The notes beneath the pieces were generated by a model, which made no database searches, was not told the DNA's origin, and saw nothing but the letters and a program-made list of their open reading frames with translations. A stretch of DNA of 64,000 nucleotides from Nitrospirota bacterium (lineage in GTDB: Bacteria > Nitrospirota > Nitrospiria > SBBL01 > JAADHI01), in NCBI GenBank assembly GCA_029261195.1, contig JAJDBU010000072.1, forward strand, positions 1 through 64,000, read 5' to 3'. Position numbers and translations under genes: made by a program. Position 1 is the first letter of the stretch; every line of letters begins with the position of its first letter. Shown piece after piece: positions 16,575 through 32,171 of the stretch.

Positions 16575-16988
16575 TCAATGGCTGACAACCAAAAGGCCTT
16601 CCATGCCAAGGGCTCGATGGCCCTCCAGAATACAGAAATATCCATACCCACCTGTTTTAAATGGAACAAAGGTCATCACGGTTTTGCTTCCTTTTTCAGA
16701 AACCTCTTCTGATGTGATAAAAAAGCTAGGCAATGTAATATGGTGATTGAGCCCGTCATCATTGATCAAGGTAATCTTGACGACATCCCATGCCCGCACG
16801 GGGAGAGTTGGATTCACGACACCATCAATTTTTCCACCCACTCCGACAAAGAGTCGCCTTTCTCCCTCCATCACTGTCTTGAGCGTAAAGAATGAAACAG
16901 GATGATCCTGATCGGATGTTTCTGCCTCCGCTTTTCCACCTACAAAAAATATCACCACAATAAACAAAAATACTATTTGAGTTTTCAC
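16575..16988 (-). CDS. Secreted cupredoxin-domain copper protein
   Basis: Signal peptide; GLNHHITLPSF and YFCILEGHRALGMEGLLVV type-1 copper ligand set (H...C-x4-H-x4-M). Confidence 0.75.
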   Translation of the reverse strand: MKTQIVFLFIVVIFFVGGKAEAETSDQDHPVSFFTLKTVMEGERRLFVGVGGKIDGVVNPTLPVRAWDVVKITLINDDGLNHHITLPSFFITSEEVSEKGSKTVMTFVPFKTGGYGYFCILEGHRALGMEGLLVVSH

Positions 16989-17071: not shown

Positions 17072-18454
17072 TTATCGGTCAATCTCATGTTTCAGGCTCA
17101 ACATGTAGTCTGTTAAATCATGGAGGGCTTGTTCTTCCAAGCCATAGGCCGGCATCATGGAATCGGGGACCAGCGACTGCGGATCTTTGAAGTGCTGGAT
17201 GAACCAATCGCGGCTTCGAAGCTCTCCAATGTACGAGAGATCGGGCCCGAAGGCCTCTCCGGCCCCATGAATACGATGGCAGGCGGCGCAATCGAGTTCA
17301 TGATAGACCGCCTTGCCACGTAACACCGAGGGGCTGAGGGTCGGCAGGGAGGAAATATCCCGTATTGAAATCGCTATCAATGTGAAGACCATGGTGAGAA
17401 ACAGCCCTCCTCCGACGAAAAAAAACCGTCGAGAGATAGGGCGGCGGTCTTTGCGCCGATCAAGCCACGGGAGAAAGAAGAGGATCAGGAAAAAGAGTGA
17501 CGGCAGGATCAGCGTGCCGACCACCTCCCACGGTCCGGAAAAATATTTCAATAACTGATAGTAAAAAAGGAAGAACCACTCCGGAATCGGGTTAAACGTC
17601 GTGTCGGTTGGATTGGCCGGATCTGATAGGGGGGCCGGAAACCAGACGGCCAATCCTGCAACGATCATGAATGCGATGAGGATGCCGACGGCATCCATCG
17701 CCACCTGTTTCGGCCAAAACGGTTCCCTGATCCTGGCGGCCCTTGCCTTGTCCCATGGCCCCGCAGGGCCGACCCTTCTGAGGATGAAGAGATGAAGAGT
17801 CACAAGGAGTATCAAGAGCCAGGGCAGAAAGAGGGTGTGAAGGGCGAAAAACCGGTTCAGCGTCATCGCACCAAGATCCTGTCCTCCCCGAATGATCCTG
17901 AGCAGAGACGTGCCCACCAGGGGGAGGGTACCGACAATATTGATTCCTACCTGTGTGGCCCAATAGGCCCGCTGATCCCACGGAAGGAGGTAGCCGCTGA
18001 ACCCGAATGCAAGGGTGATGATAAAAAGGACCACCCCGACAAGCCACATCAGTTCGCGAGGCCTTTTATAGGCGCCGTAGAGAAAGACCTGGAGCATGTG
18101 AAGCCCAATCATCACCATCATGCCACTGGCACCCCAATGATGCAGTCCCCTGACAAAGGAACCAAATTCAACCTCTTCCATGATGTAGCGGATCGACTCA
18201 TGGGCATGCTCAATAGAAGGGGAGTAATAGATGGCGAGAAACATCCCGGTGATCATCTGAAGCAGGAAGAAAAAGAGGGTAATACTCCCAAAGATGTAGA
18301 CCCAGCTGGCCCCGCCCGGGATCGCTTCATCCAGGAGTGCAATCTTGATCGGCCTCAGCTTCAGACGTTCATCGAACCATCGATAGAGCATCTTCTTCAT
18401 TTTCTTTCTGAAAGCCTCACCACGATGAGGCAATCTCTTTCTGCTACAACGCAA
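17072..18454 (-). CDS. Cytochrome b (b6/petD-like fused) with C-terminal cytochrome c domain
   Basis: Heme-ligand His pairs (HHWGASGMMVMIGLH; ALHTLFLPWLLILLVTLH), PEWF Qo motif, C-terminal LDCAACHRIHGAG...MMPAYG. Confidence 0.9.
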   Translation of the reverse strand: MRCSRKRLPHRGEAFRKKMKKMLYRWFDERLKLRPIKIALLDEAIPGGASWVYIFGSITLFFFLLQMITGMFLAIYYSPSIEHAHESIRYIMEEVEFGSFVRGLHHWGASGMMVMIGLHMLQVFLYGAYKRPRELMWLVGVVLFIITLAFGFSGYLLPWDQRAYWATQVGINIVGTLPLVGTSLLRIIRGGQDLGAMTLNRFFALHTLFLPWLLILLVTLHLFILRRVGPAGPWDKARAARIREPFWPKQVAMDAVGILIAFMIVAGLAVWFPAPLSDPANPTDTTFNPIPEWFFLFYYQLLKYFSGPWEVVGTLILPSLFFLILFFLPWLDRRKDRRPISRRFFFVGGGLFLTMVFTLIAISIRDISSLPTLSPSVLRGKAVYHELDCAACHRIHGAGEAFGPDLSYIGELRSRDWFIQHFKDPQSLVPDSMMPAYGLEEQALHDLTDYMLSLKHEIDR

Positions 18455-18950
18455 TCTGACGAGAAATCCCTGCCTTGAATTCTTTATAACGCGTTAGAAT
18501 CCTGTCCCCATCCATCTTGACAGGAAGCCGGTCTAAGGGACGAGGGGCAGGCCCCTTGATGACTTTGCCATCCAGGGCGAAGACGCTGTTGTGGCAAGGG
18601 CACAGGAACGATTGTTTTTTCTGTACCCATCGATACCCACATCCAAGATGTGTACAGATCGGGGAATAGACAATGATTTGACCGGTGCTGTCCTTCGCGG
18701 CCCAGACCGATTTTTTTTTGTTGGTTTTGTGCCATCCATCCTTGACGGAGAGGACCAGTTCCAGCTCGGTCGGAACCCCTGTTCGTAGTGCTTCTACAGG
18801 ACCGATGTCCATCCAAACGGGCTTTCGCCGCTTGAATGCAGGAATGATCGTATATCCCGCAAGGGGGATCCCTATTGTTACGCCGACGAGGGCAGCGATG
18901 GCGCCGGTCGCCCTAGCCAGAAATCTCCTGCGACCTTCATGCTCTTTCAT
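18444..18950 (-). CDS. Rieske 2Fe-2S protein
   Basis: CTHLGCGYRWV...FLCPCHNSVFALDG, N-terminal Tat-like RRRFLARATG. Confidence 0.93.
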   Translation of the reverse strand: MKEHEGRRRFLARATGAIAALVGVTIGIPLAGYTIIPAFKRRKPVWMDIGPVEALRTGVPTELELVLSVKDGWHKTNKKKSVWAAKDSTGQIIVYSPICTHLGCGYRWVQKKQSFLCPCHNSVFALDGKVIKGPAPRPLDRLPVKMDGDRILTRYKEFKAGISRQIAL

Positions 18951-19723
18951 CTTCTCCTCTCATTATGTTCGGGAAGCAGCCTGGTTGACCGGAACCACAT
19001 CTCCCAGAGTGAAATAAAAATCTGAAGTAACAAGGCAAGTCCCATCAATACCCCACCGATGATCACGGTATAAGCAAAAACAGGTTGCAGTTTAGTAAAC
19101 CACCAGGAGCCGATATCAACCCATATCGCGACAAATGGCGTGGCGATCAAGAAGACACGCCACCGGACTTTGATCGCACTGAGCGCAAAAATGCCGCCGG
19201 TCAAGAAGAATATAAAACTCATTCCAAATAGATGGACGTGGGAGACGCGAACGAGGGACTTGACTGACTGACCCATATCGACCTCTGTATAAACGAGCAC
19301 TTCTTCATACGAAGTCAGGGGCTCAACCGGCATCCCGGATTCCGGGCTGTGACACATGACGCAATTACGCTCTAAAATCGGCTTGAGTGCTGAAAATCCG
19401 GATTCTTGGGCACCTGCTTCCAGCCACTGAAAGATGGTTTCTTTTTCACCTGCTGTAATATTGTCACCCATTGAACCCTTTAAGGCAGCACCAAGCCTTG
19501 TGCCTTGTTGTTTTCCATAATACTTGCCGACAACCGCAGCCACGGGTCCATCTCCCTGCTCGGTGTGGGGTTCGATTTCGATAAGATAGAGATAAGCCAA
19601 CGCAAAGAGATACCCAATGCCTATTGTCAACAAAAGGCAGGTAAAGAGTGTCTTAAGCGGCAAGGGAATGTGGCTTAGAGTCATTCGATCTTCTTTTTGT
19701 GAAGTCATTGACTCGCTCCCCAT
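18947..19723 (-). CDS. Membrane protein with single CxxCH heme site and about five TM helices
   Basis: ILERNCVMCHSPESGMP; hydrophobic segments before and after; overlaps Rieske start. Confidence 0.7.
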   Translation of the reverse strand: MGSESMTSQKEDRMTLSHIPLPLKTLFTCLLLTIGIGYLFALAYLYLIEIEPHTEQGDGPVAAVVGKYYGKQQGTRLGAALKGSMGDNITAGEKETIFQWLEAGAQESGFSALKPILERNCVMCHSPESGMPVEPLTSYEEVLVYTEVDMGQSVKSLVRVSHVHLFGMSFIFFLTGGIFALSAIKVRWRVFLIATPFVAIWVDIGSWWFTKLQPVFAYTVIIGGVLMGLALLLQIFISLWEMWFRSTRLLPEHNERRR

Positions 19724-20088
19724 TATTGTTGAGACAAAAGATAAGTTGTCAGGGCTGAGAGGTCTGCATCAGAGCCCTTCACCGGCATCATCTTTGCCCC
19801 TGGAACCATTTTTTTTGGATTCTTCATGAAAGCGATCAGCCATTCACGGTCACGCTTACTAGCAATGTGAGAGAGGTCCGGCCCCATCTTGCCGCCCTTT
19901 CCCTCAATCATATGGCACATGCCGCATCGTTTTTTTGCATAGAAGGCCTTCCCCACATCAACATCTGAATCTGAGACATGCACCGGCTCTGAGGCATACA
20001 GCGGCTGGAGGCCGGTCATCATACTGATCAATGAAAACACCATCACAATGATTAATCCTTGCATCTCCATCTCCTTTCTCCCTGACAT
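19723..20088 (-). CDS. Monoheme cytochrome c
   Basis: KKRCGMCHMIEGKGGKMGPDLSHI...MVPGAKMMPVKG. Confidence 0.85.
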   Translation of the reverse strand: MSGRKEMEMQGLIIVMVFSLISMMTGLQPLYASEPVHVSDSDVDVGKAFYAKKRCGMCHMIEGKGGKMGPDLSHIASKRDREWLIAFMKNPKKMVPGAKMMPVKGSDADLSALTTYLLSQQ

Positions 20089-20173: not shown

Positions 20174-21361
20174 CTAAAAGTTGATCATCGCTTCAGCCAG
20201 GGCCTGATAGTCCGTCGCCCCCTTGGCGTCATCTGTTGAACGATTTACCTCTAAGGCAAGCCGGAGGTTCCTCTGGAAGGAGTGAACCGCCCCGATCATC
20301 TCCTTCTGACGGACATCTTTACCGGCACCATCATTCGGATCAATCCAGTCGAAGCGGGCCAGAAGGGTCGTCTCTTTTCCTTTGAGGAACTGTTGCAGTT
20401 CTACATAAAAACTGTTCCCTTCGACATCAGACCCGGCCGCAGTCGGAACACTGTCTTCGCTACGGAAGTAGCCACCGATGATCTCTGTCCCGGAAGAAAA
20501 GATCTTGTTGGCCACCATGCCATAGCGATAGAACATATAATCATCCGGAAGGGTTCCATCGTGCCAGACCCCTCGATAGCCGTAGAGCGTAAACCCCGAG
20601 GCCAGTTCATCAAGGATGTGTTCATAGGCGAACAGGAAATCTTTTTCCCTGTCTTCATCACCCACAATTCCGGATTTCCCCCCGATGACAAGACCGTTTA
20701 GAACCTGAGCCAGGATCCGGGCGTTGCCAATCACATGTGCGACTTCGACTCCTTTCTGATTTTCTCTGATCCTGAAACGAATCGGGCTGGTGGTCAGGTC
20801 TCTTGATGAGAGGGGTTCTGGGCGGCTAATCCCGGTCGGTCGGTCGAAGCCTCCGATCCCCACCCCCTGGATCGGGTGGAATTGACCAAATCGAATGGTG
20901 GTGAAGTGCCTTGGTTTTCCAAAAAGGGCTCGAACCTGGGCAACGACCTTGATTTCATCTTCTCCTTCCCATTCGAGTTCCGTAAACGAAGAGATGTTCT
21001 CTGACAGCGCTCCGGCATAAAAGAATGTCGTGTCATGCCATTCGAACCTGTTGACGTCACTGGCATTTTCTTTTGCCTGGTAGCGTGCCCGTCCGCGACC
21101 CCGGAGGGAGAGAAAGTGCCCGACATTTGAGATGTCCTGGGCCTGATCAAATTCATCCGACATTCGGTAGCCCGCCCAGCGGAATTGCTGACCCTTTTTA
21201 TTCAAATGGGGAACCGCGGGATAATGGCAAAGGCTACAATCGGCGTTATATTTTCTCCCCCATGCAGGTAGGGCAGAGGCTTCCTGGGGGAGAAACATCC
21301 CATAAAGGCAAGAAAATCCAATGCCAAGCATGATCAAAATCCAAGTCGTTTTATGCTTCAT
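20174..21361 (-). CDS. Porin-cytochrome fusion (Cyc2-like): N-terminal single heme plus predicted outer-membrane beta-barrel
   Basis: Signal peptide, ALPAWGRKYNADCSLCHYPAVPHLNKKGQQFRWAGYRM, then alternating amphipathic strands to a C-terminal ALAEAMINF (terminal aromatic). Confidence 0.7.
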   Translation of the reverse strand: MKHKTTWILIMLGIGFSCLYGMFLPQEASALPAWGRKYNADCSLCHYPAVPHLNKKGQQFRWAGYRMSDEFDQAQDISNVGHFLSLRGRGRARYQAKENASDVNRFEWHDTTFFYAGALSENISSFTELEWEGEDEIKVVAQVRALFGKPRHFTTIRFGQFHPIQGVGIGGFDRPTGISRPEPLSSRDLTTSPIRFRIRENQKGVEVAHVIGNARILAQVLNGLVIGGKSGIVGDEDREKDFLFAYEHILDELASGFTLYGYRGVWHDGTLPDDYMFYRYGMVANKIFSSGTEIIGGYFRSEDSVPTAAGSDVEGNSFYVELQQFLKGKETTLLARFDWIDPNDGAGKDVRQKEMIGAVHSFQRNLRLALEVNRSTDDAKGATDYQALAEAMINF

Positions 21362-21831
21362 TTTACCCTCCTATTTAATTGAGGTTGTCTGGAGTGCGGT
21401 GATTGTTTCTGGAATACCGTGACGGGGCAGGAGGACAGCTGGACAACCCGCTCGGCCTGACTCCCCATCAGAAAATGGTCGAATCCCGTCCTCCCATGGG
21501 TTCCCATCATGATTAGATCGACCTTCAAGGCCTTGGATAACCGTACAATCTCGATGTGAGGGACGCCGATGCCCAACTCTGCGCTTGCCTCGATGCCGCT
21601 TTGCCTGGCCAGGATCGCCAGGTCGTTCAACAGTGCGTTTGCCTGATCTTTCATATAGGCATAGCCTTCGTCAAAAAGGGCCGTCATTTCATCCGGATGA
21701 TCGAGACGCGCCAACACGTGGACAAAGACCACATCCGCTCCAAGCTGTTTGGCCATTGATATGGCGGCCTTATTTGTCTTGTTGGACAATTCAGAAAAGT
21801 CAGTTGGAATCATCACCTTTTTGATCTTCAC
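21358..21831 (-). CDS. Universal stress protein A domain protein
   Basis: VMIPTDFSELSNKT...GVPHIEIVRLSKALKVDLIMMGTHGRTGFDHFLMGSQAERVVQLSSCPV; GTG start at 21831 behind AGGAGG. Confidence 0.9.
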   Translation of the reverse strand: MKIKKVMIPTDFSELSNKTNKAAISMAKQLGADVVFVHVLARLDHPDEMTALFDEGYAYMKDQANALLNDLAILARQSGIEASAELGIGVPHIEIVRLSKALKVDLIMMGTHGRTGFDHFLMGSQAERVVQLSSCPVTVFQKQSPHSRQPQLNRRVK

Positions 21832-21888
21832 CTGCTCCCTCCTGTTCTTTGTAAAGCGTTTCGCTATTACCAATTAGCAATACAGATA

Positions 21889-21904
21889 GCAATACAGATG
21901 CCAA
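21889..21904 (-). promoter_or_regulatory. Sigma-54 (-24/-12) promoter candidate for usp/porin-cytochrome/bc operon
   Basis: TGGCATCTGTATTGCT on minus strand (consensus TGGCAC-N5-TTGCW; GG-N10-GC), about 58 nt upstream of usp GTG. Confidence 0.75.
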
Positions 21905-22044: not shown

Positions 22045-22060
22045 CATGACAACTGTCATG
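22045..22060. promoter_or_regulatory. Candidate NtrC-type activator site
   Basis: CATGACAACTGTCATG palindrome, upstream of the 21889 promoter. Confidence 0.6.
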
Positions 22061-22299: not shown

Positions 22300-24450
22300 T
22301 TAGTCTTTCGATAAGGCGTAAGAAAACCAAAGCCCAATCACACTGACTTTGTAATTGGGGCTTTCCGCCCCGCTTGCTAAGACGTTTGAAACGGTATTCA
22401 CGGCAAGGCCGTCAAGCGTCCAATCCCTCGTCTTATACGCTTCGTAAAAGTATCGTGCCTTCATCGTCAAACGCGGGTTTATTTGATAATTCGCAGAGAG
22501 CCTTGCACTATAAAGTCTGGTTTTTAGCTCAGGAAAGGTTTCTGCGGTGCGGCCGAGTGTGCGTGCCTCAATTGCTCCGATTGATTTTGAATAAGTAAAG
22601 TCAAGCCCCACGTTCCAAAGGCCGTTTATATTTGAAAAAGAAAACCCGCTGCTGAGTGTGTTAATCATATCCCGATTGTGAGCAAACCAATCCGGTGCGC
22701 CAAAGCTCTGGCTTCCTGCTTGATCAGACTTGATCTTTTCGTGACTGAATAGGGTATAAAAACTGCCATTTTCAAAAAGTAGTAGAGAGACATCAATGAC
22801 GATATTCAAGCGATCACTACCTGTCAGACCCAGGACCGAATCTTTATAGTCATCTGAATTGACTTCTGAGGACAAAGCAACATTCAAACGCTGATGTGGT
22901 GTGAGTGAAAACTTTAGCCTTGCTTGGTCTCGGGTCCGATCCGCCAGGTTGAATTTTCTCAAAAGTGGATTTTGAAAGGTCTCAATTTCATCGGTTCCCC
23001 TGTAACGCTTACCATCGCGATCAGCATGTAAGATCTCCAGGCTGACGGGTCTTTTTCCTTTGTTGCCTGAAGCGGATATTTTTATCCAGACCGTTTTCTC
23101 TTCAGTTTTTGAGACTTCTTGAAAGTTCCGTTTATAGATTTCGTAGTTGAGGCCACCTGAAAATCGTTTCCGACGTCCAAAACGATAATTACTTTTGAGA
23201 TCGATATTCTGTCGTTGAAAGCTGTAGGGGATATTTGTTCGTGTATCGGAAAAAAAAGTATCCGATTCTATGAAATCGTAGACTTTTCGCGCGGTTTTAT
23301 TCTTGCGATTATTGAGGTCATAGAGCAGATTGAGTGTCAGCTTCGCCCTAGGTCTCGAATGTAATCGAAGATGGAGTCGGGTGGTATTTACTTTTGCGTC
23401 CAATGAAGAAATCGGCAATGGACCTACCAGGTTTGCATTGATAGTAGAGGGGATAAAGGCCTCATCCTGAGTCATACGGCCGAAGGAGAGCATGCCGCTC
23501 GCCTGTGTTTGAATCGTGAGTTGGTAAGTTCCTGACAGGGTGATTTGATGTGCCTGATTATCGGGCGCAAGCGCACTTCGCCCGCGGTCGCCCCCGGTGG
23601 TCAGGGGGGTAAATGGATTTTCCCAGGTGATGCTTGGATGTTGACTGTCGAAAAAAGAGCCATAATATTCAAGACTTAGAAGTCCTTGTTTATTCGTGTA
23701 AGTGATGGATGCATCAATTTCATCCGTGGTGTAATCAATCGGTTTCGCTAAGATTGAAGTGAAGATGATAAAATTTCCCGTGTGAAGACCTTGGCCTTCA
23801 CGTCTTTCCCGCCGGTAATCAAGCACATATTTAAGTTGGGGCGTCAGAAGATACGAAAACCCAAACTGGGTATTTTCACGCTCATGCGCTATCGGCATTG
23901 GACGAAGCGCGTTTGTGAGTTGACTCATTCCCCCCGTACTTGTAGCCCTCGTCCAGCCTGTAGGCAAAGTCATGTTTGTGCCGCCCGATCCGAGAAAGGG
24001 GCTTTTCCCGGAATCGTCTCCTTGTTTTTGGAGTAAGTCATAAGCCAATCTCACTTCGTATTGCCCCTGCTGCCCCCCCTCTATTTTCAGGCTGCGTGAA
24101 TCAAGGCCAAGGTCGGAACCGAGCATTTCCCAATAGGAATTTCCCTTCCCCCAATAACGAAGGTCGATTTCTCCAATCGCATAAGGCCCTTTGTCTTCGA
24201 GTCCACGATAGTCCCCGAATTTGAAGGAATCATCCGAAATATAGGCCGAACCCAGTTCAAACCGCCCGTGCAAACCTTTTGTATGAGGGCACAATTCACA
24301 TATCCATCCTGAGGGTTTAATGTCTTCCTTAAGCATGTTTTTTTCCACGGACTCAGCGGTGGAGGAAGAAGGCGTTAGGACATGAGGAAGAAGAAACACC
24401 AGTATGCTTGCAACATTGATCAGATTATTTCGTAAACGTGCTGTGGGCAT
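22300..24450 (-). CDS. mtrB: MtrB/PioB-family decaheme-associated outer membrane beta-barrel
   Basis: N-terminal CELC (CxxC) motif, FELGSAYISDDSFKFGDYRGLEDKGPYAIGEIDLRYW, long repeated beta-strand pattern; start at MPTARLRNN rather than 24624. Confidence 0.85.
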   Translation of the reverse strand: MPTARLRNNLINVASILVFLLPHVLTPSSSTAESVEKNMLKEDIKPSGWICELCPHTKGLHGRFELGSAYISDDSFKFGDYRGLEDKGPYAIGEIDLRYWGKGNSYWEMLGSDLGLDSRSLKIEGGQQGQYEVRLAYDLLQKQGDDSGKSPFLGSGGTNMTLPTGWTRATSTGGMSQLTNALRPMPIAHERENTQFGFSYLLTPQLKYVLDYRRERREGQGLHTGNFIIFTSILAKPIDYTTDEIDASITYTNKQGLLSLEYYGSFFDSQHPSITWENPFTPLTTGGDRGRSALAPDNQAHQITLSGTYQLTIQTQASGMLSFGRMTQDEAFIPSTINANLVGPLPISSLDAKVNTTRLHLRLHSRPRAKLTLNLLYDLNNRKNKTARKVYDFIESDTFFSDTRTNIPYSFQRQNIDLKSNYRFGRRKRFSGGLNYEIYKRNFQEVSKTEEKTVWIKISASGNKGKRPVSLEILHADRDGKRYRGTDEIETFQNPLLRKFNLADRTRDQARLKFSLTPHQRLNVALSSEVNSDDYKDSVLGLTGSDRLNIVIDVSLLLFENGSFYTLFSHEKIKSDQAGSQSFGAPDWFAHNRDMINTLSSGFSFSNINGLWNVGLDFTYSKSIGAIEARTLGRTAETFPELKTRLYSARLSANYQINPRLTMKARYFYEAYKTRDWTLDGLAVNTVSNVLASGAESPNYKVSVIGLWFSYALSKD

Positions 24451-24467
24451 GCAATGCTCCTTCTCCT

Positions 24468-25472
24468 CTATCTCGTTAAGCGTGCACCCGATGGATGATT
24501 TGAGCCATGCACTTGAGTGTGGCAATTCATGCACCCTCTCGCTAAAAGCAAAGCAGAGCCTCCAGAGGGCGGAAGTCCACTCGGTAATCCAGAAACACTG
24601 GGATGTCCGGCCCGGGAATGACATTGCTGACAGAGAAACGGCGGACGTTTACTCAAAAGCGAAGGATGGTTAGAGCCGTGGACCTGATGGCAAAGCGTAC
24701 AATCCTCTGATGCGGGCGCATGTTCCCAGAGGAAGGGGCCGCGTTTCTCGGTATGGCAGCTATAACAGGTTTCGTTCAGGGTTTGACGAATGAGCTGGAA
24801 TTCAGTGTTTGATCCATGGGCTTGATGGCAAGCCGTGCAGGCCATTTTTCCGTAACGAATCGGATGGGAGCTGGCCTTAAAACTGTCAGCACGTTTCTGT
24901 TGATGACAAGTAAAACAGACTTTTGGCTGATCTTTGATGCTAAAAACCGGGTCACGTTCTGCATGAATGCGATGACAGGATGCGCAGGAAACATCTTCTC
25001 TTTCATGGGTGCTGCCATGCCAGGCCATTCCGAGCTTCGATTTGTGACAAGTCTCACAGACCTGGTTTTGTTCACGAATCGATGTACGGGCTCCGAGGCC
25101 GAAGCTTCGGATACCAATATTTTTTTCCCCGGTCATCACAGCCTCGGGGTGTAAGGCTCCTGGGCCGTGACAACTTTCACATTCGAGACCGGCAAAAGGT
25201 GTTCGGGCATCCGAAGTTTCAGCATGTCGTGTTTTAAAGATGGAAAGCACCGGAAACGCTGACCCTTCTCCGTGACATTGAAGGCAGAGATCCGAGCCAT
25301 ACTCGCTATATTGAGGTGGAGCCTCTTTTTTCGGCGCATCGCTCATGGCACCCTGTAAGGCATCCTGACTGAAGAGAAGTTCTGGCCAAAAAACCATTAA
25401 AAATACCTCCGCAACGGAAAATAAAATCGTGACAAAAAAAACCGTTCTGAGTATTTTGGCCATTGTAATCAA
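24468..25472 (-). CDS. mtrA: DmsE/MtrA-family decaheme c-type cytochrome
   Basis: Ten CxxCH counted: CLQCH CESCH CETCH CASCH CFTCH CTACH CYSCH CTLCH CQQCH CMNCH; N-terminal signal/TM. Confidence 0.92.
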   Translation of the reverse strand: MITMAKILRTVFFVTILFSVAEVFLMVFWPELLFSQDALQGAMSDAPKKEAPPQYSEYGSDLCLQCHGEGSAFPVLSIFKTRHAETSDARTPFAGLECESCHGPGALHPEAVMTGEKNIGIRSFGLGARTSIREQNQVCETCHKSKLGMAWHGSTHEREDVSCASCHRIHAERDPVFSIKDQPKVCFTCHQQKRADSFKASSHPIRYGKMACTACHQAHGSNTEFQLIRQTLNETCYSCHTEKRGPFLWEHAPASEDCTLCHQVHGSNHPSLLSKRPPFLCQQCHSRAGHPSVSGLPSGLPPSGGSALLLARGCMNCHTQVHGSNHPSGARLTR

Positions 25473-25550: not shown

Positions 25551-27734
25551 TTACTGAAACTGATGAACGGTTTTGATATCTGCGAGCGCACCTTTTCCGT
25601 GACAGACCGCACAGGTTTCGACCACTAGGCCTGCCGAGGTAGAAGTCAATGCCCCGTTCGCTGCCTGAGTCACATCGAAAGCCCCACCATTCTGCTTCAT
25701 ATGTTCAGTTGCCAAGATGCTGGTGTGGCAGGAGGAGCAGACGGCTGTGTTCGGAGTGATATTGACATCATCCAATGGGTCGGCAAGGTTGACACCGGTA
25801 TCAACCGTTGTTGCCAGGACACCTGTTCCAACGGGATAGTAGGTATCGCCCAGGTGGCATTGGGAACAATTGTTCAGGTTACCCGGAAATACCACCCCCG
25901 TGAAATCGTGAAGACGACTGCCGAATCCATAAACGTAAAGCCCCATCCCGTCAGCGCCTGCATGAAGGGCATGAATCATCCGTTTAAAATCGATGGATTC
26001 TTCCTTCTTTCCGTCGGGGGTCGTTGTTGGATCGGCAGGACGCCGACTCACATCGGTGTTATTTGCATTATGGCAACCGAGGCAGAGATCGACATTGTCG
26101 GTTCGGTTTGAACCATGGAGACTCAGCGATTTATGACAATTGTTGCATTTGTCCATGTCGACAACGGCTCTCCTTTTCACAGGCGTCGCATCCGTGATGG
26201 AAAAGAAGTCCGTCGCTCCCTTCACAGCGATCCTCTCGACAATGCCGTCACTATCGACATCTACCGCTGGATGTCCCTCTAATGTCGCCATACCCGAACC
26301 TGTGGCGCCCGTCGGAATCGCAACAGTAGAAGTCATTGTGAAAGTTCCATCACCATTGGCAATGGCTGCGCCTCCTAAAGGATTAAGGCTAACCATTGAA
26401 GCAGGCGTTTGACCACTTCCCGTGTTATCGAAATCACTTGAACTCCAGGCAAGATCAATTGCTAGACGACTTGCCCCTCCTCCCTGAACAAATGGCGCAT
26501 CGCTTTGAACATTGTAGGCTGCATCGCCATTACTTGGGTCTGTGACCGAGAAGGTAATCATGGGGAATGTCCCTGGGGTTCCATTGGTGACCGAGTGAAT
26601 ATTAAACTTAAATGCGGCGGCGGCAGTATCAGTAAGGATGGCGTGACTTGTGTCGATTCGCCCGATCAAACCGCCATCACTGTGGCAGCTAGTGCAGTCT
26701 GCATTACTGGCAACTACAATATTGGCGAGGCTATGATTTGCGCCAGTTGCAAAGTTCACGTCGTCGTGGCAGGAAGCGCAGGCTTCCATCGTGGGGGTCT
26801 TAAGCCAATTCTGGGCATCCGGCGTTTCGGTGTCGGTTTCGTTGTGACAGGTTCGGCAGTTGCGGATATCCTGAGGCCAAACGACTTTGGAATAGTCATG
26901 TTTCGTGTCTCGGAAGCCCCATATTGCATATTCTCCACCAGCGACGACGCTGGGCAATGTTGATCCCCGGTGTATTTTGTGGATCATGACCTTGAAATCG
27001 AGGGTGTTTCCACTATTTGCATCGGTAGAACCAGGATTGTGACAGCTCACACAATATTCGGTATCGAAGCGGGCGCTGCCATGCATGGATAATTTGTCGT
27101 GGCAGACATTGCAGGATTCCGTCTTAACAATTTCGCGGGTGAAAATTCCTGTTGTTGCGCCATCCGAGGGACGAAAAGTGTAGACCGCGTTGCCTATTGA
27201 GGTGGCCCCGCCGCGGATTTCAAATCCAACACGGTGAGTCAGTGCCGCATCGTAGGGTAGGGCGGCATTGTTCAAGTCGACTGCAAAGGTATAGCTGTAA
27301 GTGCCGTCCAGGTGATCTACAAGGGTTCCGCTTGCGCCGCTTTCAGTTGCCGCCTGGATTTGAGCAACCGTGCCCGATCCCCCTCCTCCCGGCTCTTCGG
27401 TCCGCGTGATGTAGTTTTGCCACTCACTGGCACCGCCATTAATGCCCGGTACCAAACGCGAAATAGAAAAACTGATGTTACTGTCCGATAAACCGGTAAC
27501 CAGATTCTCTTTGTCATCCTTAAGGGTGAACTGAACCACTGCGGGGCTGTTGATCGTTACATCGGTGATGCTTGGCGTAATTTTTCCGGCATCAGCAAGT
27601 CGTATGCTTGCAGATCTTCCCGGCTGTCCCTGAGGACCTACAGCGCCCTGATCACCATCGCTGCATCCCAAAAAAATGAGTGCGGGTAAGAGCAGAAGGA
27701 AAGCCCCTTGAAATTTACATAAGCGATTCATCAT
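25551..27734 (-). CDS. mtrC: OmcA/MtrC-family decaheme outer-surface lipoprotein cytochrome
   Basis: Lipobox LIFLGCSDGD; ten CxxCH counted: CNVCH CVSCH CRTCH CASCH CTSCH CNNCH CLGCH CSQCH CSSCH CAVCH; ORF extends to 27755 but AAAGGAGG favours a start at 27734/27731. Confidence 0.92.
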   Translation of the reverse strand: MMNRLCKFQGAFLLLLPALIFLGCSDGDQGAVGPQGQPGRSASIRLADAGKITPSITDVTINSPAVVQFTLKDDKENLVTGLSDSNISFSISRLVPGINGGASEWQNYITRTEEPGGGGSGTVAQIQAATESGASGTLVDHLDGTYSYTFAVDLNNAALPYDAALTHRVGFEIRGGATSIGNAVYTFRPSDGATTGIFTREIVKTESCNVCHDKLSMHGSARFDTEYCVSCHNPGSTDANSGNTLDFKVMIHKIHRGSTLPSVVAGGEYAIWGFRDTKHDYSKVVWPQDIRNCRTCHNETDTETPDAQNWLKTPTMEACASCHDDVNFATGANHSLANIVVASNADCTSCHSDGGLIGRIDTSHAILTDTAAAAFKFNIHSVTNGTPGTFPMITFSVTDPSNGDAAYNVQSDAPFVQGGGASRLAIDLAWSSSDFDNTGSGQTPASMVSLNPLGGAAIANGDGTFTMTSTVAIPTGATGSGMATLEGHPAVDVDSDGIVERIAVKGATDFFSITDATPVKRRAVVDMDKCNNCHKSLSLHGSNRTDNVDLCLGCHNANNTDVSRRPADPTTTPDGKKEESIDFKRMIHALHAGADGMGLYVYGFGSRLHDFTGVVFPGNLNNCSQCHLGDTYYPVGTGVLATTVDTGVNLADPLDDVNITPNTAVCSSCHTSILATEHMKQNGGAFDVTQAANGALTSTSAGLVVETCAVCHGKGALADIKTVHQFQ

Positions 27735-27789
27735 CAACCTCCTTTGCATTTTCATTCAAATGATTCTCTTTTTCTTACCACTTAGGCTT

Positions 27790-27805
27790 CGCAAACCTCA
27801 TACCA
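27790..27805 (-). promoter_or_regulatory. Sigma-54 (-24/-12) promoter candidate for mtrCAB
   Basis: TGGTATGAGGTTTGCG on minus strand (GG-N10-GC), about 45-50 nt before the mtrC start. Confidence 0.65.
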
Positions 27806-27947: not shown

Positions 27948-27961
27948 GTGACAATTGTCAT
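27948..27961. promoter_or_regulatory. Candidate NtrC-type activator site
   Basis: GTGACAATTGTCAT, contains 12-bp perfect palindrome TGACAATTGTCA, about 145 bp upstream of the mtrC promoter. Confidence 0.6.
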
Positions 27962-28120: not shown

Positions 28121-28561
28121 TTAATCGGACGGTTCCTGAGATGTTTCTTGCCTTTTATTCAATGTGTCCCTTAATCGCTTGGTTTCCCGGTAGGCACGAT
28201 CCAGCGCGAGTCCTTTCTCGACCGCTGCTTCCAATATTTCCAGATTTTTAAATGGTTTTGTGAGATAGTCGAAAAGACCTTCTCGAACTACACGGACGAA
28301 ATTACTCTCATCCGGATATCCAGTCATCAGGATTGCAACTTGTCCGGGACGATCCTTCAGCATATCCTGCAAAATATTCAGCCCCTGTTCATCCGGCAGA
28401 CGCTGGTCCATCAGGATAAGATTAAAGTCCTTTTCCCGAAAGAGGCGCCGGGCCTCCGATCCCGTGGATGCGAGTTGAAGATCAATCGGCTTGCCGCGAA
28501 AGAGTCTTTCAAATAATTTTAAAGTGTAGGGGTCGTCATCAACGACAAGGATCCTAAGCAT
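28121..28561 (-). CDS. Stand-alone REC-domain response regulator
   Basis: ILVVDDDPYTLKLFERLFRGKPI...LILMDQRLPDEQGL...VAILMTGYPDE...FDYLTKPF. Confidence 0.9.
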   Translation of the reverse strand: MLRILVVDDDPYTLKLFERLFRGKPIDLQLASTGSEARRLFREKDFNLILMDQRLPDEQGLNILQDMLKDRPGQVAILMTGYPDESNFVRVVREGLFDYLTKPFKNLEILEAAVEKGLALDRAYRETKRLRDTLNKRQETSQEPSD

Positions 28562-28590: not shown

Positions 28591-29040
28591 TTAGTTCCCT
28601 TTATGTGAACTATATACAAAGGTTGAACCATCTTTTCTGATTGCAATCACTCTGAAGTCGTCTTTCCTGTTTCCCTGTTCCATTCCGGGCGCCCCTGTCG
28701 GCATCCCCCGAACAGCCAAGCCCCTTATATCGGGTCTTTCTTTTAGCAGTCGCCGAAGATCACTGACAGGCACATGGCCTTCGAGCACATATCCCTCCAC
28801 GACCGCCGTATGGCAAGAACTTAAATGCTGCGGTATTCCAAATTTTTTTTTGAGGGATGCCACATTTTCGACTGGCTTTTCAGTCACATTGAAGCCATTG
28901 TCATTCATATAGCGGGTCCAGTTTGAGCAACATCCACAAAATCGGCTTTTGTAGACCGTGATCTCTTTTGCTTGAACCACTGTCCAAACATTCTGGACCA
29001 GAAACGCAACGACCAATACAAACAAGATTTTTTTTATCAT
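28591..29040 (-). CDS. DUF411 family (CcgAII-type) putative metal-binding periplasmic protein
   Basis: ITVYKSRFCGCCSNWTRYMNDNGFNVTEKPVENVASLKKKFGIPQHLSSCHTAVVEGYVLEGHVPVSDLRRLLKERPDIRGLAVRGMPTGAPGME. Confidence 0.9.
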   Translation of the reverse strand: MIKKILFVLVVAFLVQNVWTVVQAKEITVYKSRFCGCCSNWTRYMNDNGFNVTEKPVENVASLKKKFGIPQHLSSCHTAVVEGYVLEGHVPVSDLRRLLKERPDIRGLAVRGMPTGAPGMEQGNRKDDFRVIAIRKDGSTFVYSSHKGN

Positions 29041-29147: not shown

Positions 29148-29163
29148 AGCAATCGGAATGCCA
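29148..29163 (-). promoter_or_regulatory. Sigma-54 (-24/-12) promoter candidate for DUF411-REC operon
   Basis: TGGCATTCCGATTGCT on minus strand (GG-N10-GC). Confidence 0.75.
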
Positions 29164-29246: not shown

Positions 29247-29260
29247 ATGACATCTATCAT
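29247..29260. promoter_or_regulatory. Candidate NtrC-type activator site
   Basis: ATGACATCTATCAT about 85 bp upstream of the 29148 promoter. Confidence 0.5.
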
Positions 29261-29305: not shown

Positions 29306-30688
29306 TTATGATGTAGGGGGTTTCCCCCACCGTTTCATCCGAACATACAGGTTTTGGCGTGGTATGCCGCTTAATCGGGCGGCCTCAGAGATATTGCCGT
29401 CGGTGGCCTTCAGAAGACGTTTGAGATAGTCAGACTCAAATACTTCACGCTCTTTCTGGTACAGGGAGATCTCTCCGGATTTCAGTATCGGAGCTTGCGT
29501 CTGCTGTGCTTTATTTTCAATCTGGTCTGGATATTCAATCTGAAATGCCTTGATCGGTCCGCCGGAATGGAGTGCGACAATCCGCTCAATGGTGTGTTGG
29601 AGTTGTCGGACATTTCCCGGCCACGAAATCGTTTCCAATACCTCTATGGCCTCAGGCGTAATAGGACCAACCTTCTTGCCGAAGCGGGTATTGAACTGGT
29701 CGAGAAAATAAAGCGCCAGAAGGGTAATATCTCCCCCTCTCTCTCGCAAGGGAGGAATTTTAATCGTGATCACATTAATCCGGTAGAATAGATCTTCTCT
29801 GAAATGCCCCTTTCTGACCTCCTCAATAAGCCGTTTGTTCGTTGCGAATATCAAACGGAAATTGCTGGAACGCAGCTTTGAGCTGCCAAGTCGAGAAAAG
29901 GTCCTTTCCTGTAGCACATGGAGCAGACTGCTTTGCATTTTTTCGCTCATATTGGAGATTTCGTCGAAAAAGAGAGTCCCGCCATCGGCCTTCTCAAAAT
30001 AACCTGGCGTGGTCTTGATGGCGCCGGTAAACGCCCCCCGCTCGTAACCGAAAAGGGCGCTCTCTAGGAGTGATTCGGACAAACCCCCGCAGTTGACCAC
30101 CAGAAAATCTCTTTTGGCATTTTGACTCAAGTCATGGAGATATTTTGCGGCTAGGCTTTTTCCGGTGCCGCTCTCCCCTTCCAGCAACACCGTTGCATCG
30201 AGGGAGGCGATCTGCTCCATTTGCGCCATCAGTTTCGCCATCGCCGGTGAATGGCCGATGAGCGTTAGTCCGGCCTTCCGAGTGTCGAGGACATTGCGCA
30301 AGCGCTTGATTTCACGGTATGCGCGATCAAGCTCAAGGGCCTTTTCGATCACGGCCTCCAATGCTTCCAGATTCTTGAATGGCTTGGTCAGGTAGTCAAA
30401 GAGGCCTTCCCGAACGGCCCGGATGGCGTCACTGACATCGGCATATCCGGTAATCAGGATGGCGACCTGCTGCGGGCGTTCCTTCCGCATCTCCTTCAGG
30501 ATTTCGAGTCCCCGTTCTCCGGGAAGCCGCTGGTCCATCAGGATAAGGTTGTAGTCATGTGTTTGAAAGAGCCGGCGGGCCTCCGAACCGTCCGATGCAA
30601 GATCAAGCTTGATCGGTTTTCCCCGGAAAAGTCTTTCGAATAATTTTAAGGTGTAGGGGTCGTCATCGACGACCAGAATTTTAACCAT
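29306..30688 (-). CDS. Sigma-54-dependent response regulator (REC-AAA+-Fis HTH, NtrC family)
   Basis: REC domain; GESGTGKSLAAKYLH, GAFTGA loop, GTLFFDEISNM, RRLPGNVRQL-type SWPGNVRQL, Fis-type HTH EAARLSGIPRQNLYVRMKR. Confidence 0.95.
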   Translation of the reverse strand: MVKILVVDDDPYTLKLFERLFRGKPIKLDLASDGSEARRLFQTHDYNLILMDQRLPGERGLEILKEMRKERPQQVAILITGYADVSDAIRAVREGLFDYLTKPFKNLEALEAVIEKALELDRAYREIKRLRNVLDTRKAGLTLIGHSPAMAKLMAQMEQIASLDATVLLEGESGTGKSLAAKYLHDLSQNAKRDFLVVNCGGLSESLLESALFGYERGAFTGAIKTTPGYFEKADGGTLFFDEISNMSEKMQSSLLHVLQERTFSRLGSSKLRSSNFRLIFATNKRLIEEVRKGHFREDLFYRINVITIKIPPLRERGGDITLLALYFLDQFNTRFGKKVGPITPEAIEVLETISWPGNVRQLQHTIERIVALHSGGPIKAFQIEYPDQIENKAQQTQAPILKSGEISLYQKEREVFESDYLKRLLKATDGNISEAARLSGIPRQNLYVRMKRWGKPPTS

Positions 30689-32171
30689 GCACTGTCTCAT
30701 GAAGGTTGTCGGGCAGCCAAAGCGTAAACGCTGCGCCGCCTCCGGGATGATTGGTGGCGGTAATCAGCCCGCCATGCAGGATCGCAACATGCTGGACGAG
30801 TGACAAGCCCAAGCCGGTTCCTCTTGAACGGGTGGTAAAAAAAGGGGTGAAGATTTTATCGATGATTTCTTCGGAGAGACCCGGCCCCTTGTCCAGAACA
30901 GAAAGAGCCCATCCTTCTCCCCCTTCTCCGTCCCTTGATTCTGCGGAAAGGCGAACGGTCACCTTTCCCTTCTCGTCTGCCTGAAATGCATTTGAGATGA
31001 GGTTAAACAGGGCGTGACGGATCAGGATCGGGTCCACTTCAAGCATGACCGGCTGTTCCGGGAGTTCTGCTTCCATTGAGAGTGCATGTGTGGCACTCTG
31101 CTGGCAGAGGGCCATGATCTCCCCAATCAAGGACTTCATTTCAGTCGGTTTGCGATCGAAACATGAAACTTTTGTAAATTCCATCATACGTTGCAGGAAG
31201 CTTCGGCAATCCTCTCCTGCGTTCTGGATATCCTCCAGCAATTCTCTTGTATTTTCCGGGTTCTTTCCCTCCCGCAGGGCGAGTTGCGCCATGTTGACGA
31301 CACCGACCAGGGGATTGTTGATCTGATGCGCGATTTCCCCGATCATCAGGCCCATCGCCGAGAGTTTTTCAAGCTGTACAATTCTTTGATGTTCCATGTT
31401 TAATTTAGAAAACTGTGTCTCGATCTCTTCCTTGCGTTTTGTAATGTCCCTCATGATACCCACGGAAATCCATTTTCCGGAAATTTCCGAAGCAGAGAAG
31501 GCATGTTCCATGGGAAATTCAGTCCCATTCTTCCTTTGCACCATCGTTTCAAAGGTATGTCCCAACAAAGGTTCCGTTCCTGTTCTCCTGAGTGCTTCGA
31601 CATGTTCCCGAAACACGCCATGATATTTTTCAGGGATGATTGTCGAGAGCATGCTGCGTCCGATGACTTCCGAGGCCTGATAGCCGAACAGCTTTTCTGC
31701 AGCGGTATTCCAATACAATACAGTTATTTCGTGGTCGATCATGGTAATTGCATCCAGAGACTTTTCAGTGACAGTACGAAGTTTAGCTTCGCTCTCGCGA
31801 AGCGCCGTCTCCGCCATCTTTGATGCTATGCTTGCCGACCGATATTGATTAACCAGAATTGCGGTGATCCAGATGACCACCAGTGCGAGCGCCCGATTCA
31901 AAAGCACAACCCAGAGGACACCCCCCGGAGGAGATAAAAAATAACCCAGAAGAGTCAGTAATGAAGCGGCAACAGCCGTTAGATAAGTAAAGCGAGCCTG
32001 CGGAGAAAAAAAGGAGAGAAGCACCAGAAGCACGTAAGGCACCCCGCCTGCGTATCCCAGTTGAATGGCAAGATCAAATACAAAGATCCCGTAGCCCCAC
32101 ATGATGATAAGAATAATCAGCTGCCTGTGGGGGAACTCTCCTCTCAAGGCAATTTTCACACGATCGTTCAT
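30681..32171 (-). CDS. Membrane PAS-domain sensor histidine kinase
   Basis: N-terminal TM helices, PAS, EIAHQINNPLVGVVNMAQ H-box, NLISNAFQAD N-box, GTGLGLSLVQHV G-box; overlaps the regulator gene. Confidence 0.93.
   Translation of the reverse strand: MNDRVKIALRGEFPHRQLIILIIMWGYGIFVFDLAIQLGYAGGVPYVLLVLLSFFSPQARFTYLTAVAASLLTLLGYFLSPPGGVLWVVLLNRALALVVIWITAILVNQYRSASIASKMAETALRESEAKLRTVTEKSLDAITMIDHEITVLYWNTAAEKLFGYQASEVIGRSMLSTIIPEKYHGVFREHVEALRRTGTEPLLGHTFETMVQRKNGTEFPMEHAFSASEISGKWISVGIMRDITKRKEEIETQFSKLNMEHQRIVQLEKLSAMGLMIGEIAHQINNPLVGVVNMAQLALREGKNPENTRELLEDIQNAGEDCRSFLQRMMEFTKVSCFDRKPTEMKSLIGEIMALCQQSATHALSMEAELPEQPVMLEVDPILIRHALFNLISNAFQADEKGKVTVRLSAESRDGEGGEGWALSVLDKGPGLSEEIIDKIFTPFFTTRSRGTGLGLSLVQHVAILHGGLITATNHPGGGAAFTLWLPDNLHETVHG

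Follow-up and report, generated by a model that had tools for sequence, protein, structure and literature searches.

The window, a 64,000-nucleotide stretch of DNA from a Nitrospirota bacterium, contains a gene island lying entirely on the minus strand, from a histidine kinase gene at 32171 to a cupredoxin gene at 16575, in the order histidine kinase, NtrC, DUF411, receiver, mtrC, mtrA, mtrB, usp, PC1, cyc1h, memc, Rieske, cytb-c, and cupredoxin. This single orientation contradicts the divergent regulation that a sequence-only reading of the locus had proposed. The island begins with a membrane PAS histidine kinase (30681..32171), whose gene overlaps that of an NtrC-family sigma-54 activator (29306..30700; Sigma54_activat 1.5e-64) composed of a receiver, an AAA+ domain with GAFTGA, and a Fis-type HTH, followed by a DUF411 protein (28591..29040) and a receiver-only response regulator (28121..28561; Response_reg 7.8e-22). 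The mtr genes encode a decaheme outer-surface cytochrome of the MtrC/OmcA family (25551..27755; TIGR03507 2.5e-165), the decaheme periplasmic cytochrome MtrA (24468..25472; TIGR03508 7.5e-85), each with 10 CxxCH motifs, and the large outer-membrane barrel MtrB (22300..24624; MtrB_PioB 1.2e-153).

Downstream of mtrB, a UspA-family universal stress protein gene (usp, 21358..21873; Pfam Usp 7.9e-28) is the first gene of a likely operon containing PC1 (20174..21361), a periplasmic monoheme cytochrome c (cyc1h, 19723..20088; Cytochrom_C 2.2e-11), a membrane protein with one CxxCH by motif count (memc, 18947..19723), a Rieske iron-sulfur protein (18444..18950; Pfam Rieske 4.2e-10), and a cytochrome b that carries a monoheme cytochrome c at its C terminus, as in a bc-type complex (17072..18454; Cytochrome_B 1.5e-54, Cytochrom_C 3e-10). 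The last gene of the island encodes a cupredoxin-like protein (16575..16988) with weak rusticyanin/plastocyanin similarity, which adjoins the memc module elsewhere. Because usp and PC1 overlap (gap of −4 bp), as do cyc1h and memc (−1 bp), memc and Rieske (−4 bp), and Rieske and cytb (−11 bp), and a gap of only 85 bp separates PC1 from cyc1h, a single transcript is likely. Cyc1h is the probable electron acceptor of PC1. Memc gave no confident family matches and its AlphaFold model was too poor for use (mean pLDDT 50); the protein is strongly conserved alongside either PC1 or mtrAB.

The PC1 open reading frame is real, as had been claimed, is a conserved gene, and encodes a fused monoheme cytochrome-porin of 395 amino acids. 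The protein begins MKHKTTWILIMLGIGFSCLYGMFLPQEASALPAWGRKYNADCSLCHYPAVPHLN (translation of window:20174-21361, minus strand), with a signal peptide read off the sequence, followed by ALPAWGRKYNADCSLCHYPAVPHLN and a predicted 16-strand barrel. Its only CxxCH, found by motif count, is CSLCH at residue 42, and the surrounding motif, AxPA[WF][AG]RKY..CxxCH..PxL, is kept across members that possess the N terminus. Neither the sequence nor the family profile produced a family match in Pfam, NCBIfam, PHROGs, or the PDB sequences.

The AlphaFold2 model of PC1, computed with 15 sequences as input, has exactly 16 strands (pTM 0.73, mean pLDDT 73), with residues 21–50, which include the heme motif, as its least confident part (pLDDT <50). 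The best matches to this model in a Foldseek search of the PDB were 16-strand porins, namely Omp32 (E 3.2e-11), PorB, and OmpF, with OprO ranked lower; OprO/OprP and PorB are the reported templates for Cyc2 and Cyc572 (PMC8406198, PMC10654088). A fold lacking a barrel, which would have spoken against the earlier reading, did not arise. PC1 is thus probably a 16-strand porin of the outer membrane that carries a c-type heme of its own near the N terminus, and this heme would sit inside the pore; no conserved second axial heme ligand was identified in PC1.

Approximately 16 homologues can be aligned with PC1 over most of their length, at 37–67% identity. Within the order (18 genomes), orthologues were found only in genomes G002 (67%) and G004 (63%), the remaining matches being confined wholly or mainly to the heme end. 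Within the class (270 genomes), ∼16 genomes gave long matches with E <1e-66, after which the matches weakened abruptly to 1e-29 and, beyond that, were limited to the N terminus, and a sample of the phylum (396 genomes) added no further full-length members outside class Nitrospiria. A scan of the genome contigs with the single PC1 sequence produced no matches, and one with the family profile produced 14 loci. Among the genomes searched, the clade is therefore confined to class Nitrospiria, apart from one database match labeled Elusimicrobia. This homologue (L116) lies on a short contig and groups with Nitrospira members; the label is possibly a binning error. Named records that carry PC1 include Candidatus Manganitrophaceae M_MetaBat.18 and several Nitrospira MAGs.

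PC1 shares with Cyc2 of Mariprofundus and Acidithiobacillus (Keffer et al. 2021, PMC8406198) a signal peptide, an N-terminal CxxCH, and then a predicted 16-strand porin. In both, the heme site is preceded by AxPx[aromatic][A/G]R[K]Y and followed by PxL, and a cytochrome c gene adjoins. The motif that defines Cyc2 upstream of the heme site is AXPXFAR[Q/K][T/Y] (PMC8406198). Its strict form fails in this PC1, which reads ALPAWGRKY, with W for F and G for A; it is found in 4 of 15 clade members, and the relaxed form in all 15. In place of a PXL 4 residues downstream of CXXCH, PC1 has PHL displaced by one residue, and the CH-to-PxL spacing is 4 residues in 15 of 15 members checked, compared with 3 in the Nitrospirota Cyc2-like proteins of groups G1–G4 and 3 or 5 in plasmid Cyc2 proteins. 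Several other Cyc2 characteristics are present, these being a length of at least 365 residues, an apparent signal peptide, a single N-terminal CxxCH, and, in the model, a C-terminally fused 16-strand outer-membrane porin.

Profile comparisons were made with Cyc2-type sequences from plasmids (Caballeronia, Ideonella, Methylocystis, A. ferrooxidans, Paraburkholderia, and Polymorphobacter), retrieved using a motif peptide composed from the published consensus; a c-type cytochrome gene comes next in five of these six cases. The match between PC1 and this profile covered the first ∼106 columns, at a probability of 97.7%, whereas the PC1 barrel alone reached 18.9%, so that the barrel has no recognizable similarity to that of FARQTG Cyc2; the other Nitrospirota groups likewise have no barrel similarity to the plasmid (FARQTG) profiles. 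In contrast, the alignment with group G4 spanned 301 columns at 99.7%, the barrel by itself reaching 97.4%, and the barrel matched group G3 with 90.8%, compared with 0.2% for MtrB as a control. In the maximum-likelihood tree, PC1 forms one clade with full support and a branch length of 1.13, apart from the six plasmid Cyc2 homologues, and a joint clade of the two was disfavored (p-AU 0.036), although the deeper branching among the groups is weakly supported and influenced by long branches. The Cyc2-like identity proposed from the sequence therefore holds for the one-heme porin architecture, the heme motif at the N terminus, and a homology with Cyc2-like proteins of Nitrospirota that runs through the barrel, but not for direct identity. 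Since the strict motif fails and similarity to proteobacterial (plasmid) Cyc2 ends after the heme region, PC1 is not filed as Cyc2; it is best read from these comparisons as a separate Nitrospiria clade within the same cytochrome-porin superfamily.

The Nitrospirota Cyc2-like KY-type proteins (groups G1–G4) are homologous to PC1 in the heme region, and in G3 and G4 through the barrel as well, but differ from it in their three-residue CH-PxL gap and occupy separate branches of the tree. PC1 is also distinct from the Cyc2-like protein of the f2 genomes (group G2), in which no full-length PC1 matches were found. The genome of the window itself encodes a second Cyc2-like protein on contig C63 (L003:7066-8496; 476 aa, AIPAFSRKY..CTSCH), which resembles PC1 at the N-terminal heme end only; the next gene encodes a cytochrome c that has two CxxCH. 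Leptospirillum Cyt572 (Cyc2 cluster 3) has a PorB-like 16-strand prediction (PMC10654088), a porin prediction like that of PC1, the likeness being to the published description rather than to a named sequence. MtrCAB, MtoAB, and PioAB, like PC1, combine a porin and cytochrome for outer-membrane electron transfer, and mtrCAB both adjoins PC1 and is apparently co-regulated with it; PC1 differs from these systems in that a single polypeptide carries both its one heme and its 16-strand barrel, and its profile has no similarity to that of MtrB. In Ca. Manganitrophaceae, Cyc2 and PCC_1 are candidate Mn(II) oxidation proteins (PMC9040806), giving both conduit types in one genome; the family belongs to the same broad lineage, and one PC1 orthologue lies in a MAG so named.

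In the window, mtrC, mtrA, and mtrB are located upstream of PC1 on the same strand, and the position of PC1 beside mtrCAB is as first described. As a conserved linkage this association does not stand, because the genomes of the two closest relatives (G002 and G004) lack mtrB; no mtr homologues were found among the PC1 neighbors inspected in other genomes, and PC1 does not appear there as a conserved part of an mtr cluster. The gene order is usp-PC1-cyc1h-memc in G004 and histidine kinase-NtrC-PC1-cyc1h-receiver protein in G002, and a monoheme cytochrome gene adjoins PC1 in G002, G004, and G033 and lies nearby in G112. The conserved partners of PC1 are UspA, the monoheme cytochrome c, and the membrane cytochrome; mtr is not among them. 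Without PC1, usp, cyc1h, and memc occur together in G005 and G006, and usp and memc in G003 and G007. The order cyc1h-mtrA-mtrB-memc is found in G009 and G013, memc is next to mtrB in G010 too, and memc is the conserved neighbor of cyc1h in the f1 genomes. Given the occurrence of usp, cyc1h, and memc without PC1 and of the same cytochromes beside mtrAB elsewhere, gene order suggests that PC1 and mtrAB are alternative outer components serving a single inner module, and this genome has both of them.

Other surroundings of PC1 were also seen. In G002, the histidine kinase-NtrC-PC1-cyc1h-receiver block (L029:10032-16730) is placed between inverted copies of an IS-type integrase, 78% identical over 794 bp, which suggests that the PC1 cassette may have moved as a unit. 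In three Nitrospira-type loci (L082:10695-12372, L083:7622-9300, and L078:6987-8679), PC1 is followed by genes for a putative lipoprotein of ∼285 residues with a SHOCT-like end and a CarboxypepD_reg protein of ∼260 residues.

A pattern scan placed a sigma-54-like −24/−12 site (TGGCATCTGTATTGCT, 21888..21903, minus strand) upstream of usp-PC1. A palindrome (TGACAGTTGTCA, 22047..22058, minus strand) that may serve as an NtrC-type activator site lies farther upstream, its start 155 bp ahead of that of the sigma-54-like site. The same arrangement is found upstream of mtrC, where a sigma-54-like site (TGGTATGAGGTTTGCG, 27790..27805, minus strand) is preceded, again at 155 bp, by a palindrome (TGACAATTGTCA, 27949..27960, minus strand). 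The DUF411 gene bears the same pair (29148-29163 and 29248-29259, respectively), with starts 96 bp apart, and may be a third member of this putative regulon.

The putative NtrC-target palindromes have the form TGACANNTGTCA. Within the 3.04-Mb genome, ATGACANNTGTCA occurs at two sites only, upstream of usp and mtrC, and TGAYANNTGTCA gives five strand matches at three places (usp, mtrC, and DUF411), compared with 0.15 expected. The tight sigma-54-like pattern was matched four times in 64 kb, and three of these matches precede DUF411, mtrC, and usp; as this pattern was selected after the candidate sites had been viewed, its own rarity is partly circular, and most weight is placed on the more independent evidence of the palindrome, the equal spacing, and the site in G002. 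There, a palindrome/promoter pair (TGACAACTGTTA, 140 apart) is also present upstream of PC1, with an NtrC gene adjacent; in G003–G007, the region upstream of usp lacks the pair. A loose sigma-54 scan with three mismatches found 76 sites compared with 93 expected, a simple TGGC-N7-TGC pattern gave no signal, and sigma-70 and terminator scans were scarcely above chance. The island activator has the sigma-54 domain, GAFTGA, and Fis-type HTH (Pfam and motif), and the locus appears to combine the −24/−12 promoter, upstream site, and GAFTGA activator of a sigma-54/NtrC regulon, the sites being putative. Taken together, the shared sigma-54-like promoters, the rare palindrome, its equal spacing, and the NtrC of the island suggest that usp-PC1 and mtrCAB are co-induced by one histidine kinase-NtrC pair via sigma-54 promoters. 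The switching between conduits that had been envisaged is not supported, the sites pointing instead to joint induction, and the two conduits probably feed one inner module.

The reading we favor, and consider reasonably likely, is that the PC1 heme oxidizes a small dissolved donor and delivers electrons to cyc1h and the bc-type module, with MtrCAB taking larger or solid partners. A dissolved one-electron donor, presumably Fe(II) or possibly, in this lineage, Mn(II), would enter the barrel and meet the heme of PC1, much as in Cyc2. From there the electron would move inward, first to the monoheme cytochrome of the adjoining gene and then to the module of membrane cytochrome, Rieske protein, and cytochrome b-c. 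MtrCAB would serve as the conduit for minerals and other large partners, PC1 as that for small soluble donors, and both would drain into an inner module that, judging by gene neighborhood, is probably common to the two. A broader version, in which the one-heme porin and MtrCAB form a dual-conduit island under one two-component sigma-54 switch, with a single exchangeable inner module and simultaneous use of dissolved and solid donors, is put forward tentatively.

MtrC/OmcA-type cytochromes serve electron export too, and the family is best known from metal reducers. That PC1 works jointly with MtrCAB in outward flow, respiring a soluble or extracellular acceptor, or that its heme gates the pore, is accordingly the strongest alternative, although we regard it as rather unlikely. 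PC1 adjoins just such a decaheme system, the same monoheme and membrane cytochromes are found with mtrAB elsewhere, and its varied surroundings in Nitrospira-type genomes would suit outward flow or another role; on the other hand, no CymA-type quinol-to-periplasm cytochrome was found in the operon, the adjoining Rieske/cytochrome b complex fits a role in oxidizing a pool of periplasmic cytochromes, or else reverse flow, and Cyc2, the nearest characterized architecture, is an Fe(II) oxidase (PMC8406198). Much less probable is that PC1 is a true Cyc2 orthologue and that the cell toggles between Cyc2 and MtrCAB via divergent promoters. The common architecture, the N-terminal motif, and the presence of both conduit types within one island are what such a scheme would explain, but the tree places PC1 in a clade apart, with full support and a long branch, its barrel lacks similarity to the FARQTG Cyc2 profile (as do the other Nitrospirota groups), and the island has one strand throughout with identical regulatory sites at both promoters. 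Finally, an ordinary porin with a chance CxxCH and no heme attached, to which the lack of a Pfam, NCBIfam, or PHROGs family and the low model confidence at the motif might point, is highly improbable, as members bearing the N terminus, at 37–67% overall identity, retain the motif along with the AxPA..RKY and PxL on either side of it, and a cytochrome c gene adjoins PC1 in several genomes.

Cyc2-like genes serve as iron-oxidation markers, and one Nitrospirota Cyc2-like clade is now defined by sequence and tied to specific electron-transfer partners. The conserved company of PC1 consists of the monoheme and membrane cytochromes, and its adjacency to mtrCAB is to be taken as incidental; the link of this clade to the MtrCAB conduit is through shared regulatory sites. 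A direct test thereby becomes possible, both of the donor that reduces each conduit and of the common inner module that would receive electrons from the two. If the broader dual-conduit version is true, the organism, whose lineage is related to the Mn(II)-oxidizing Manganitrophaceae, could draw on dissolved and solid metal donors at the same time.
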